Below, piece after piece: positions 5,192-9,213 of a DNA stretch of 35,359 bases. The position numbers and the translations under genes were made by a program. This DNA is from a virus. How positions within the stretch are numbered: the stretch's first letter is position 1; each line of letters starts with the position of its first letter. The notes beneath the pieces are model-generated. The model saw nothing but the letters and a program-made list of their open reading frames with translations. It was not told where the DNA came from and made no database searches. The stretch is taken from the IMG/VR virus record IMGVR_UViG_3300043778_000176, positions 1-35,359 of that record. The stretch is one strand, 5' to 3'.

Positions 5192-5734
5192 TCAGGACCC
5201 CATCCAACTGTTGGGCCCGCCACCACCTCGTCGTGCATTGATGGGCTGGGCCTGGCCGGGAAGCTTGATATCGGTGTTGCAGACGGGGCAGTGCCACCAT
5301 CCGATGGTGTACTGGGTCGTCGGGTGGAGGCGCAGGACGGCCTTGCGCCGCTCGGGGCCGTCGAAGCAGGGCTGACAGATGTAGTGCTCAGGCTCCGCCG
5401 CGGATGGATTACCGGGTGCGGTGCCAACTGGCCGGGCATCTGCGCGATAAGCGAAGCTGCCCGGAACGAGTTCGAACAGCACGTAGGAGCCCTTCTCCGC
5501 GAGAGCTTCTTTGGCTTCGGCCAATTCCTTTGTGGTCTTGAGATACTCCTCCTGGAACGTCAGGAGGGCGGTGTTGTGCGCGAGCAGTCCTTGTTGGGCC
5601 TTGATCAGCGCCTCGTTCAACTCGCTGAGCTTCGCTGCCGACTGGTTGAAATCTCGAAGTCCGAGTGCGGCTCTACCGAGTGCAACAGCGGCGTTCAAGG
5701 ATGTGACAGCGCTACTGATATCCGAAAAGTCCAT
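5192..5734 (-). CDS. Coiled-coil and zinc-ribbon hypothetical protein (180 aa)
   Basis: The start is ATG 5734 on the minus strand with GGGGGA just upstream; the frame is open to 5836 but the added residues look non-coding. Residues 1-35 (MDFSDISSAVTSLNAAVALG) and the following 60 residues form a long helix or coiled coil (KLSELNEALIKAQQGLLAHNTALLTF..., KTTKELAEAKEALAEKG). The C-terminal half has two CxxC pairs, YICQPCF and WWHCPVC, that should bind one zinc ion as a zinc ribbon. Proteins of this design are frequent in Burkholderia prophages and islands with no known role. It is the only leftward gene in the control region and diverges from the small ORF at 5824, so a bidirectional promoter probably lies in 5735-5823. 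Confidence 0.8.
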   Translation of the reverse strand: MDFSDISSAVTSLNAAVALGRAALGLRDFNQSAAKLSELNEALIKAQQGLLAHNTALLTFQEEYLKTTKELAEAKEALAEKGSYVLFELVPGSFAYRADARPVGTAPGNPSAAEPEHYICQPCFDGPERRKAVLRLHPTTQYTIGWWHCPVCNTDIKLPGQAQPINARRGGGGPNSWMGS

Positions 5735-5823
5735 GGGAATCCCCCGGATGGTGGTCGCGTCGATTGTGGTGATCACGATTCTACTGCCGGTGCGGATTCC
5801 CGCCCGAACGATGGGGAGGCGGC
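5735..5823. promoter_or_regulatory. Divergent intergenic region with inverted repeats
   Basis: This 89-base gap separates the leftward zinc-ribbon gene from the rightward small ORF. It holds GGGAATCC at 5735-5742 and its inverted copy GGATTCCC at 5794-5801, plus the perfect 8-base palindrome GTGATCAC at 5769-5776 midway between them. This symmetric arrangement would suit an operator between divergent promoters. No convincing -10/-35 pairs were found, so the role is inferred from layout. Confidence 0.3.
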
Positions 5824-5997
5824 ATGCCAGAACCATTAGGAGTGGTTTTCGGTGAGTTCGTCAACGATATTGCTGGCGACGTGCTGGTCGGCAAACCCAC
5901 GTCTAGCGCGGTTCTCCCGGATCTGCAGGCTGAGAAAGTGGTCGTTTCCCATTTGAACGGCCCTTCGCCGCGAGAAATATACGGGAAACCGGTATAG
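5824..5997 (+). CDS. Small hypothetical protein, 57 aa
   Basis: ATG 5824 is preceded by GGGGAGG at 5813-5819, one of the best ribosome-binding sites in the region, at normal spacing. The frame runs 57 codons to TAG at 5995-5997. The product starts MPEPLGVVFGEFVNDIAGDV and has a balanced composition (hydrophobic N-terminal half, then KVVVSHLNGPSPREIYGKP), unlike a random GC-rich frame. It diverges from the zinc-ribbon gene, the position usually taken by an early rightward gene such as cro or N, but no HTH or Arg-rich motif is visible. Function unknown. Confidence 0.5.
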   Translation: MPEPLGVVFGEFVNDIAGDVLVGKPTSSAVLPDLQAEKVVVSHLNGPSPREIYGKPV

Positions 5998-6005
5998 CTT
6001 AAGCA

Positions 6006-6128
6006 CGTCGATTGGTCATCGACGAGCAAGAGAGGCGCCCCGCGTTTGTGGGGAGTGAGGCGAGCCGAACCTCTCCGGCAAACCGATCCGACTGACCATC
6101 GGCACTCCCCAGAGGCGCGGGGATTTTT
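6006..6128 (+). ncRNA. Structured RNA element ending in a terminator
   Basis: First comes a perfect hairpin, CGTCGAT 6006-6012 with ATCGACG 6018-6024. Then a long stem: CCCCGCG 6038-6044 with CGCGGGG 6116-6122, and TGGGGAGTG 6049-6057 with CACTCCCCA 6103-6111, joined by a 4-by-4 internal loop that can form U-G and U-A pairs. It encloses two small hairpins, GCCG/CGGC (6064-6079) and CCGAT/ATCGG (6083-6102). TTTTTTAT follows directly at 6124. This fits a folded antisense or attenuator RNA between the control region and the replication operon. Phage C4 antisense RNA is one family to test; I cannot assert a match from memory. Confidence 0.55.
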
Positions 6129-6176
6129 TATAGCCATTTAGTAATCCTTAGTGGATTTTTGGCAAGGATGGTAAGC

Positions 6177-6503
6177 ATGAAAGCCGCCATTGAAAGTGAT
6201 GTGATCGTTGCGGACCCGCCGTGTCAGTCGTATTCGGCGCCGCGCTGCCTGAGACGATTCAGCGTTCCGAATTTCGTCAGTTGGTCGATCAACCAGGTCG
6301 AGCACATCGAGGTGACAGGGCAGCGCCGACACGACTGCGAGCGTGAGGCTCGCATCTCCCAGCTCGGCGTCTTACTGGAGTCGCCAGTCGCTACGCCGCT
6401 ATGGCGGCGCGTGTGCAAGCACGCGATGTACGGCGAGATCCGTGCACGTAGCGCCGATCAAAGACTCGTCATGGAACTGGCGATCCAGGAGTCCATGCGA
6501 TGA
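6177..6503 (+). CDS. Small hypothetical early protein (108 aa)
   Basis: ATG 6177 has AAGGA at 6164-6168; an in-frame ATG at 6168 also exists. The stop overlaps the start of the initiator gene (ATGA at 6500), so the two are translationally coupled and this is the first gene of the replication operon. The middle segment (SVPNFVSWSINQVEHIEVTGQRRHDCEREARISQLGVLL...) is helical and charged. There is no recognisable domain. By position it could be a lambda CII- or replication-accessory-like protein, but the sequence itself does not show an HTH clearly enough to claim that. Confidence 0.6.
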   Translation: MKAAIESDVIVADPPCQSYSAPRCLRRFSVPNFVSWSINQVEHIEVTGQRRHDCEREARISQLGVLLESPVATPLWRRVCKHAMYGEIRARSADQRLVMELAIQESMR

Positions 6504-7378
6504 GCTTCCAAGCGATGACATGGGCTGTCGAGCAGGATCTGCCGGCACTGCAGAAGCTCGTTTTGCTGATGCTGGCGAACTGTACCAACTCGCACACCGG
6601 GCGCTGCGATCCCTCGCATGAACGGCTGGCCAAAGAATGCGGCATGAGCCGTGATTCCGTGCGGCGGGCGATCGCCGAGTTGGAAAGACGAGGTTTGATC
6701 GAGATCCAGAGGCAGCTCCAGAACGGCGTAAATCTCCCGAACCAGTACGTCCTGAGGGTGGGGGCATCCGTGGGGGTAGTAGGTGCTGAGAGCACCGACG
6801 GGTATGTGCTGTCAGCATCTACGGTAGGTGCTGACAGCACCTGGGGTAGGTGCTCACAGCAGGGAGGGGTAGGTGCTGACAGCACCACAAAACAGGAAGT
6901 TAAACCAGGAAGTAAACCTAAAACCCTTTCGGCTGACGCCGATGTGCGTGCAGGCAAAGATTTGCAATCGGGCAACGATCCGAAATTCGAGGAAGCGTGG
7001 GGGCAGTATCCGAAGCGTGAAGGCTCGAATTCGAAGCAGGCTGCGCAGCGGGCGTGGAGCGCTCGAATCCGCGAAGGCATCGATCCCGAGGTGCTGGTTG
7101 CGGCAGTGGCCGCCTACGCGGTGGCGATGAAAGTTGCAGGCAACATCGGCACGCCGTACGTCAAGCAGGCGTCGACGTTCTTCGGCAGCGATCGGCATTT
7201 CGAGGAATACGCCAAGCCGAGCGCCTCGAGGAGCGATCTTTTCGATGGCCCGGGCCGGGAGATGCCGTGGTGGAAGGCTGCGGGATTCGCGTACCAGTGG
7301 CAGGCGACCAATGCGGGCTGTAGCGAGCGATCGTCGTACCTTTGGGCGGATGGCGTTCGTCGGGAGCTGCGAGCATGA
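6500..7378 (+). CDS. Phage replication initiator, winged-helix, O-like
   Basis: This is 292 aa. Residues 15-75 form a typical HTH_36-type winged helix: LQKLVLLMLANCTN, then HTGRCDPSHERLAKECGMSRDSVRRAIAELERRGLIEI, as in lambda O and plasmid-type initiators. Residues 93-130 are translated iterons (GAEST, GADST) and form a linker. The C-terminal half begins with FEEAWGQYPKREGSNSKQAAQRAWSARI, the usual C-terminal domain of phage replication proteins of this class, which is thought to contact the helicase or loader. The protein should bind the iterons within its own gene and start replication. It is coupled by 4-base overlaps to the genes before and after it. The final 45 residues (WWKAAGFAYQ...) are unassigned. 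Confidence 0.8.
   Translation: MSFQAMTWAVEQDLPALQKLVLLMLANCTNSHTGRCDPSHERLAKECGMSRDSVRRAIAELERRGLIEIQRQLQNGVNLPNQYVLRVGASVGVVGAESTDGYVLSASTVGADSTWGRCSQQGGVGADSTTKQEVKPGSKPKTLSADADVRAGKDLQSGNDPKFEEAWGQYPKREGSNSKQAAQRAWSARIREGIDPEVLVAAVAAYAVAMKVAGNIGTPYVKQASTFFGSDRHFEEYAKPSASRSDLFDGPGREMPWWKAAGFAYQWQATNAGCSERSSYLWADGVRRELRA
6781..6930 (+). other. Putative origin of replication: five palindromic iterons and AT-rich tract
   Basis: Five copies of a 15-base palindrome, consensus GGTGCTGACAGCACC, lie at 6782-6796, 6805-6819, 6827-6841, 6849-6863 and 6872-6886. Centre spacing is 23, 22, 22 and 23 bases, about two helical turns. Copies 3 and 5 are perfect; copies 1, 2 and 4 have one to five changes. 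Because the spacing is not a multiple of three, copies 2 and 4 are read in other codon frames, so selection acts on the DNA. The following 6887-6930 is A-rich (ACAAAACAGGAAGTTAAACC...), a likely unwinding element. The plan is that of lambda ori inside gene O. Confidence 0.8.
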
Positions 7379-9213
7379 ACGCCCGAGAACTCGTCGAACG
7401 GATGGCGGAAAACTCGCAGGCCATCGCCGAGCACCTCTTGCCGAATGGCCGAAAGGCGGGCAAGGAATGGAAAACCGGCAGCACGGCTGGCGAGAAGGGG
7501 CAGAGCCTGTCGGTGTGCCTGGCCGGCGCGAAGCGGGGCGTTTGGAAGGACTTCGCCAGCGGAGAGGCAGGAGATCTTCTGGACCTTTGGCGCGCCTGCC
7601 GATCGTTGTCGGTGGCCGACGCCATGCGCGAGGCGAAGCAGTTCCTCGGCATCAGGGACGACATGCCGAAGCGGCAGGCACCGGCATATCAGCGTCCGGT
7701 GCGGCCGAAGGCTACTCGCCCGACAAGCCTGTTGGACGAGTGGTTCGGTAGCCGGGGAATCACGAATGAAACCGTCAAGGCATTCCAGATCGCCGAACAG
7801 ACGCACGGCTCGAAGACGCACATCGTCTTCCCGTATCTCCGCGGTGGTGAACTGATCAATGCCAAGTACCGGAACATCGCAGACAAGAAGGACATGCGGC
7901 AAGAGGCCGGCGCCGAGCCGTGCCTGTTCGGCTGGAACCTGATCGACCCGGCGGCGCGTGTCGTTACTATCGCAGAGGGCGAGATCGACGCCATGACGCT
8001 GCACCAGATCGGAATCCCAGCTCTGTCGGTGAACGCCGGCGCTGGTAATCACCAGTGGATCGATAGCGACTGGGAACGGCTCGAACGTTTCAGTGAGATC
8101 TTGCTCTGCTACGACAACGACGAGGCCGGCCGGAAAGGCGCGCAGGAGGTCGCAAACCGACTCGGTATCGAACGTTGCCGAGTCGTGTTCTTCGATGAAT
8201 CAAAGGATGCCAATGAATACCTGTTGTCGGGTGCTACGGCCGCGGATTTCCGTCGTTGTTGCGATCAGGCAGCGGGCTTCGACCCGGATGAGCTCAAGTC
8301 GATCGAGCGCTTCTGGTCGAATGTCAAATCGATGTTCTATCCGGCACACGAGGACGCGAACTGGCCGTATCTGTCGTTCTGTGGCCGCAATGAACTCTGG
8401 TTCGAATTCCGCCCGGGCGAGGTCACGGTCTGGACGGGTATCAACGGACATGGGAAGTCATTGCTGCTCGGCCAAGTGCTGCTCGGTCTGATGTGCCAAG
8501 GGGAACGCGCGTGTGTTTTTTCGGGCGAGATGAAACCGGAGATGCAGGGCAAGCGTATCGCCAAGCAACTGGGCGGTCTCGACCGTCCTACCCCGGAATA
8601 CCTCGACCATATGGGTACATGGTTGCACGATCGGATGTGGGTCTTCGATCTCGTCGGCGTTGCTGCGATCGAACGCTTGGTGACCGTCTTCACCTACGGC
8701 TTCAAGCGCTATGGGATCCGCCATTTCGTGATCGACAGCCTGATGATGACCGACGTCCCCGAAGACGGTCCGGGCGCCATGACGGCTCAGAAGGAAGCGA
8801 TGCGGATACTTGCCAACTTCGCTCGTCAGTACAACGTTCATGTTCATCTCGTCGCCCATCCCCGCAAAGGCCAGGACGAAAAGCGCATCCCGGGAAAGAT
8901 GGACGTCGGCGGCAGCGGGAAGATCACTGACGCCGCAGACAACGTGTTTTCTGTCTGGTCGGCGCAAAAGGACCAGGACGACGAGAGTGTCGACGAGCCG
9001 GACGCGTTTCTGACGCTGCTGAAAGCTCGGAACGGCGAAACGCAACGCAGGTCGCTCGCGCTGTTCTTCAACCGAGAGTGCATGCAGTTCGGGCCGAGCG
9101 AGAGTCGCCGTCCCTACACCTATCTACCCTACAGCCGCAACGCCGAAACCATCGCAGATCTCACCGGCAGGAGCCGAAGCCATGACCCAGATGACCGAAC
9201 CGTCGACCTTTAA
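7375..9213 (+). CDS. Phage primase-helicase (TOPRIM plus DnaB-like RecA domain)
   Basis: This is 612 aa, starting at ATG 7375 in a 4-base overlap with the initiator. The TOPRIM primase domain spans about residues 195-285, with EGE at 201-203 and DND at 247-249. The hexameric helicase domain of DnaB/T7 gp4 type spans about 345-580, with Walker A GINGHGKS at 355-362, Walker B HFVIDSL (Asp 454) and the HLVAHPRK motif at 491-498. The N-terminal 90 residues resemble the primase N-terminus seen in Twinkle-like proteins but carry only one Cys, so the zinc ribbon of T7 gp4 is absent. It should unwind DNA at the fork and may prime the lagging strand. A zinc motif is encoded by the next gene. Confidence 0.9.
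   Translation: MNARELVERMAENSQAIAEHLLPNGRKAGKEWKTGSTAGEKGQSLSVCLAGAKRGVWKDFASGEAGDLLDLWRACRSLSVADAMREAKQFLGIRDDMPKRQAPAYQRPVRPKATRPTSLLDEWFGSRGITNETVKAFQIAEQTHGSKTHIVFPYLRGGELINAKYRNIADKKDMRQEAGAEPCLFGWNLIDPAARVVTIAEGEIDAMTLHQIGIPALSVNAGAGNHQWIDSDWERLERFSEILLCYDNDEAGRKGAQEVANRLGIERCRVVFFDESKDANEYLLSGATAADFRRCCDQAAGFDPDELKSIERFWSNVKSMFYPAHEDANWPYLSFCGRNELWFEFRPGEVTVWTGINGHGKSLLLGQVLLGLMCQGERACVFSGEMKPEMQGKRIAKQLGGLDRPTPEYLDHMGTWLHDRMWVFDLVGVAAIERLVTVFTYGFKRYGIRHFVIDSLMMTDVPEDGPGAMTAQKEAMRILANFARQYNVHVHLVAHPRKGQDEKRIPGKMDVGGSGKITDAADNVFSVWSAQKDQDDESVDEPDAFLTLLKARNGETQRRSLALFFNRECMQFGPSESRRPYTYLPYSRNAETIADLTGRSRSHDPDDRTVDL

Follow-up and report, generated by a model that had tools for sequence, protein, structure and literature searches.

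A few lambdoid phages are the textbook cases of a replication origin situated within the gene for its own initiator. In oriLambda, located in gene O, four iterons about 20–24 bp apart occupy the middle of the initiator gene, each an imperfect 15-bp dyad with a central A, and are followed by an A-rich tract that carries a repeated unit (ACACAAAAGA). The N-terminal domain of O belongs to the Phage_rep_O family (PF04492), and the partners of this origin are the loader P and host DnaB. A division of labour is known for lambda O, in which the winged helix deals with the iterons and the C-terminal domain with the helicase, and the lambda origin also has an inverted repeat. To our knowledge, the step at which the melted strand is held is known in lambda only as binding to AT-rich single strands. 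O proteins have been reported to form dimers and to bind AT-rich single-stranded DNA (PMC7466680), and the presence of repeats in the AT-rich region of lambda has already been stated (PMC4081077). In P22, whose initiator also has a Phage_rep_O domain, the origin in gene 18 contains in-gene iterons and the next gene encodes the phage's own DnaB-type helicase (gp12), which lacks a TOPRIM primase part. The replication proteins of SfV and ST64B belong to PHROG 270; their genes hold in-gene iterons (GTGCA...TTCAC) followed by AACCAGTCA units, and no TOPRIM-DnaB gene lies beside the initiator in either phage. The plasmid origins RK2 oriV and F oriS, with their initiators TrfA and RepE, combine a winged-helix protein with iterons adjoining an AT-rich element that contains short repeats. 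TrfA reads the RK2 13-mers as single strands, and plasmid Rep proteins read the repeats of the unwinding element (DUE) in a sequence-specific manner (PMC4081077). In the DnaA-trio and oriC 13-mers, short repeats are likewise placed at a fixed distance from the last double-strand site (PMC10797057).

The window analysed here, the whole of a 35,359-nt viral sequence (IMG/VR record IMGVR_UViG_3300043778_000176), contains two elements of the lambdoid in-gene class, a dyad array at 20–24 bp spacing within the initiator gene and an A-rich tract on the C-terminal side of the iterons, the latter at nearly the same distance as in oriLambda. However, it has five iterons rather than four, an A-rich unit of the type A[AC]CAG[GT]NA, an HTH_36 rather than a Phage_rep_O initiator and, as partner, a TOPRIM-DnaB fusion. 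Unlike the RK2 and F origins, it lies inside the initiator's own gene, and it differs from the DnaA systems in its initiator class, with single-strand reading a putative role. As judged from sequence, the site is probably the phage's replication origin, placed lambda-O-style within its own initiator gene (probability about 0.86), and that it works like oriLambda is strongly supported.

The initiator gene and its iteron array

The replication genes and the array comprise the following features.

6500–7378, + strand: initiator gene, 292 aa, O-like replication initiation protein (PHROG 270)
6500–6763, + strand: winged helix-turn-helix (HTH_36), codons 1–88, from Pfam and the AlphaFold2 model
6773–6967, + strand: predicted disordered linker (pLDDT), codons 92–156; its DNA holds the putative origin
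6782–6796, + strand: iteron 1, GGTGCTGAGAGCACC, centre 6789
6805–6819, + strand: iteron 2, TGTGCTGTCAGCATC, centre 6812; degenerate, codon phase shifted
6827–6841, + strand: iteron 3, GGTGCTGACAGCACC, centre 6834; perfect dyad
6849–6863, + strand: iteron 4, GGTGCTCACAGCAGG, centre 6856; right arm degenerate, codon phase shifted
6872–6886, + strand: iteron 5, GGTGCTGACAGCACC, centre 6879; perfect dyad, from which the register of the second repeat is set
6977–7219, + strand: helical C-terminal domain, codons 160–240, confident in AlphaFold2
7375–9213, + strand: primase-helicase with TOPRIM and DnaB C-terminal domains (Pfam; PHROG 239)

The best PHROG match of the initiator is to the 'replication initiation protein' family 270 (E 5.4e-48 over aa 1–244), which spans both the N- and C-terminal domains. 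Its winged helix matches HTH_36 in Pfam (7.9e-15, 54.8 bits against a cutoff of 25) and is modelled confidently by AlphaFold2 (pLDDT about 77–94 over aa 1–90), with the recognition helix at about aa 51–63 (MSRDSVRRAIAELERR). The pLDDT lies below 50 over nearly all of aa 92–156, and the DNA encoding this predicted disordered linker is the exact site of the iterons and the A-rich stretch. The C-terminal domain resembles DnaD-like helicase loaders (PHROG 1701, 18526 and 26426). Only HTH_36 and generic HTH models were returned by the Pfam search, whereas lambda O and P22 gp18 match PF04492 at 5.7e-36 and 6.9e-38; since this defining domain is absent, the initiator is placed outside the lambda O family. 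Pfam and NCBIfam searches gave no match to plasmid Rep families. Generic winged helices were the best matches both in a PDB sequence search (E 0.058) and in Foldseek (E 8.8e-3), and neither search turned up a close solved homologue or an initiator–DNA complex.

At its 3′ end the initiator gene overlaps, through an ATGA, the next gene (7375), which encodes TOPRIM and DnaB_C domains, as the first-pass annotation had supposed, and not a P-type helicase loader; PHROG names the two families replication initiation protein and primase/helicase. The window also encodes terminase, portal (PHROG 156), scaffold, major head and head-closure proteins and an integrase, which fit a temperate podovirus. Its close relatives are prophage-like contigs, for one of which a host, Paraburkholderia tropica, is named (L079). 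The GC skew does not switch at the iteron site, an observation that in a 35-kb phage counts only weakly against an origin. Immediately before the replication genes, at 6030–6135, G+C-rich inverted repeats and a T run after them look terminator- or attenuator-like, and an ORF on the − strand (5192–5836; PHROG 1244, function unknown, 1e-23) precedes the module at a position that would suit a repressor.

The array itself consists of five copies of a 15-bp dyad, GGTGCTG-A-CAGCACC, at 6782–6886. With up to three mismatches, GGTGCTGACAGCACC is matched on the + strand at all five iteron starts and on the − strand at four of them, a total of nine against 1.08 expected, which none of 100 shuffles reached. 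When the entire window is scanned for dyads at regular spacing, the array ranks first, scoring 46.8 against 19.3 for the runner-up and at most 33.5 in local shuffles. Start-to-start spacings of 23, 22, 22 and 23 put the iterons in codon phases 0, 2, 0, 1 and 0. The first-pass annotation had described five 15-base copies at 22–23 base spacing, each an inverted repeat and the second and fourth out of codon phase with the others, and all the details of this that could be checked are borne out. One small correction concerns the dyads: the mean match over the five is 83%, and the 7+1+7 symmetry is perfect in copies 3 and 5, but copies 2 and 4 are degenerate. At 6756–6769, a further spacing ahead of iteron 1, GGGTGGGGGCATCC resembles a decayed sixth iteron, and similar remnants are seen in L001, L007, L008 and L079.

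Because three of the copies encode the peptide VGA(D/E)ST, the repeats might be thought to reflect a repetitive protein linker of this type with no role for the DNA. Copies 2 and 4 are read in other frames, however, and in 200 synonymous-codon shuffles that kept the protein the array score averaged 5.0 and never exceeded 15, compared with 28 in the gene; the encoded peptide VGADST is therefore no explanation for the repeats. In relatives, moreover, the dyads persist while the encoded peptides change. The protein-level explanation is accordingly rejected as extremely improbable, and selection at the DNA level, as first proposed, is upheld by the codon phases and the shuffles.

Conservation, co-variation and natural domain swaps

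Relatives were drawn from 72 viral loci, nine genome loci obtained by a genome-contig search and phage records. Nearly every full-length relative has three to seven spaced dyads at about nt 255–430 of the ORF, spaced 20–25 bp apart with a mode of 22/23, and a clear array was missing only in remote or partial relatives (e.g. L066 and L070–L072). Relatives with the same initiator but without repeats at this place, which would have told against an origin, were not seen, as every close full-length relative has the array. The half-sites vary widely and include GGGTCTG, GGGTCAC, GGTCAGA, GGTCGCC, GGCCGCC, GTGCAnn, GTGAAnn, GTGACAC, GTGTCAC and GTAGCTn. Two solutions to spacing occur among these loci (L049, L054, L029 and L077 compared with the window): in one the iterons share a single codon phase and lie 21/24 bp apart, in the other the phases alternate and the distance is 22/23 bp, the mean being about 22.4 bp in both.

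A comparison of iterons with initiators across relatives had been suggested at the outset, and the two do co-vary. Among 40 non-redundant loci, half-site distance correlates with recognition-helix distance (aa 49–61) at r 0.753 and with the rest of the winged helix at r 0.512; in partial Mantel tests the helix given the rest of the domain yields 0.649 (p 2e-4), and the rest given the helix 0.12. Relatedness was controlled in this test through the rest-of-domain distance only. The dyad axis was placed by hand from the dyad scan in L010, L019 and L021, and the set was confined to loci with an unambiguous array, lambda and P22 excepted.

Natural exchanges separate the two ends of the protein. In L010 the C-terminal domain (82% identical) and the primase-helicase (92%) are those of the window, but the N-terminal domain is only 42% identical and the iterons are unrelated (GTGTCACGGTGACAC). 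Conversely, L008, L009 and L011 have the same iterons and an N-terminal domain 83–91% identical, with another C-terminal domain and a helicase just 28–29% identical. These swaps imply that iterons and winged helix move together, as do helicase and C-terminal domain, in line with the division of labour in lambda O. The pairing of this C-terminal domain with this primase-helicase recurs in 15 fetched relatives (L001–L007, L010, L012, L013, L016–L018, L024 and L079), which indicates a stable partnership. The earlier suggestion of a mixed replication module, made because the fusion accompanies P22-like head genes, is thus not sustained; in P22 and HK97, too, the partner of an O-type initiator is a DnaB-type helicase that the phage itself encodes. 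The broader claim of a lambda O-like origin stands with respect to its plan, shared with lambda and P22, the retention of the array in relatives, the co-variation with the recognition helix and the swaps, but not with respect to family, since the initiator falls outside that of lambda O.

The A-rich tract and its second repeat

Downstream of the last iteron, the A-rich stretch noted in the first-pass annotation is present, the 60 nt after the iterons being 55% AT compared with 39% in the ORF. It contains the following features.

6887–6926, + strand: A-rich tract, putative DNA unwinding element, at the same place in relatives
6891–6898, + strand: second repeat, unit 1, AACAGGAA, +12 from the centre of iteron 5
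6904–6911, + strand: second repeat, unit 2, ACCAGGAA, +25 from the centre of iteron 5, in a different codon phase
6929–6942, + strand: small inverted repeat, TCGGC-TGAC-GCCGA, just past the A-rich tract

Over the first 100 nt beyond the last iteron, the motif A[AC]CAG[GT][ACT]A has a density of 13.3 per kb, compared with 0.26 per kb elsewhere in the same ORFs. Its copies number 68 against 13.1 expected under synonymous shuffling, distributed over codon phases 2, 1 and 0 as 34, 27 and 7. Whatever the iteron sequence, 39 of 40 curated loci have the start of the first unit at +12, counted from the centre of the last iteron; with fully automatic placement of the axis this holds for 28 of 35, against a background per offset of 0.07–0.12. 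The second unit lies mostly at +24 to +27, and the unit spacing is 12–13 nt. A column-wise comparison of positions +11 to +19 gives A A M C A G K A A, even though the codon phase of a given column varies among loci. Only the A/C-rich character remains in the diverged relatives L053 and L010. Past the tract, 39 of 40 relatives have a best stem score above the mean of the shuffles, and the inverted repeat at 6929–6942 recalls that of the lambda origin. A literature search for the letters AACCAGTAACC returned only unrelated papers, and the unit and register of the HTH_36-type initiators were not found described.

As an independent test, viral contigs were searched for two such units, blind to both protein and iterons, which gave at least 120 stretches for each of two patterns. 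Among the matches listed, 134 of 238 usable hits lie in proteins matching the profile of HTH_36-type initiators, and a strong dyad array lies directly upstream in 112 of the 238, a score threshold that shuffled controls passed in two of 238. Of these 112 listed arrays, 78 have an offset of +12 and 10 an offset of +11. Many of the remaining listed hits are simple repeats. At least 18 of the listed ORFs look DUF1376-like by sequence motif, and three of three tested match PF07120. Genes for DUF1376 phage proteins with no HTH_36 match have mid-gene AACCARK runs of period about 7 nt (TNQEPVTSNQEPVT) at L111:1004-1801, L116:2521-3372 and L129:4391-5218, and also in L106, L149, L163 and L166; the runs sometimes follow spaced dyads of their own (L111). 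These DUF1376 genes may contain in-gene origins with the same A-rich unit.

Similar behaviour is seen in lambda-type phages. Close relatives of lambda O in viral contigs are nearly identical and thus uninformative, so diverse lambdoid phages were taken from records. In lambda, P22, HK97, SEN22, RCIP0114, Midgardsormr38, ev243 and Paraburkholderia phage IPK the iteron sequences differ, and ACACAAAAGA or a close variant is common right after the last iteron; phi80 and Meifeng depart from this pattern. The Phage_rep_O-type loci L088, L089, L413, L415–L419 and L423 also have varied iterons followed directly by ACACAAAAGA or a close variant. Together, the HTH_36-type and lambda-type data indicate that in both initiator classes the A-rich unit next to the iterons, together with its register, is retained as the iterons themselves turn over.

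This register also bears on whether the array is an operator, through which the winged-helix protein would repress or activate transcription from repeats in its own gene, the origin lying elsewhere. Most of the similar winged helices in the Pfam and PDB comparisons belong to regulators, and some public records label relatives 'transcriptional regulator'. An operator is nevertheless unlikely, given an A-rich tract conserved in fixed register, a helicase gene directly downstream, a C-terminal domain like those of helicase loaders and the agreement with the annotated lambda iterons and the P22 rep_origin. Autoregulation could exist beside origin function.

The second repeat is read here as a putative unwinding and single-strand recognition element, with a binding partner that we infer. 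An alternative is that the origin holds, but that the AACCAG-type units are a host-factor site or merely an A/C-rich, easily melted, unstructured strand that looks like a repeat. The similar AACCARK runs of the unrelated DUF1376 proteins and the bare A/C-rich character retained in L053 and L010 are in keeping with units that the initiator does not read, and this alternative is a real possibility, although we consider it less than probable. Against it, the letters are conserved across hosts and the +12 register is fixed, which a bare melting element would not need; O proteins are reported to bind AT-rich single-stranded DNA (PMC7466680) and Rep proteins read DUE repeats (PMC4081077). A role as primase start sites (CTG on the complementary strand) was considered and dropped, because diverged units retain AACC and not CAG. 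More generally, it is proposed tentatively, at a little short of even odds, that the A[AC]CAG[GT]NA units constitute a sequence-specific single-strand recognition element for an entire class of phage initiators, a phage counterpart of the DnaA-trio that stays fixed while iterons and winged-helix specificity turn over, and that is also used by the structurally unrelated DUF1376 initiators.

A proposed mechanism and its implications

Under the origin reading, dimers of the N-terminal winged helix would bind each iteron, one monomer per half-site, as suggested by the dyad symmetry and the precedent of lambda O dimers (PMC7466680). With a site-to-site distance of about two helical turns (22–23 bp), bound dimers could stack into an O-some-like complex, the strain from which would melt the adjoining A-rich tract. 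The AACCAG-type units might then serve to retain one exposed strand, as the examples of TrfA with the RK2 13-mers (PMC4081077) and of O with AT-rich single-stranded DNA (PMC7466680) suggest. Finally, the C-terminal domain would recruit the phage's own primase-helicase, encoded just downstream, as the natural swaps suggest; the TOPRIM-DnaB protein (7375–9213) is likely to be the helicase loaded at the in-gene origin. Placement of the origin in linker DNA would make iteron specificity and helicase partner exchangeable by recombination on either side.

The probable window origin is a variant of the lambda-type plan with a new second element. The in-gene plan of lambda is now seen in a different initiator family (HTH_36/PHROG 270) and across many phages. 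As iterons and recognition helix change together, these loci offer a natural data set from which a specificity code between initiator and origin could be tested by swaps, and the second repeat provides a candidate, defined letter by letter, for the means by which O-type initiators keep hold of the melted strand.
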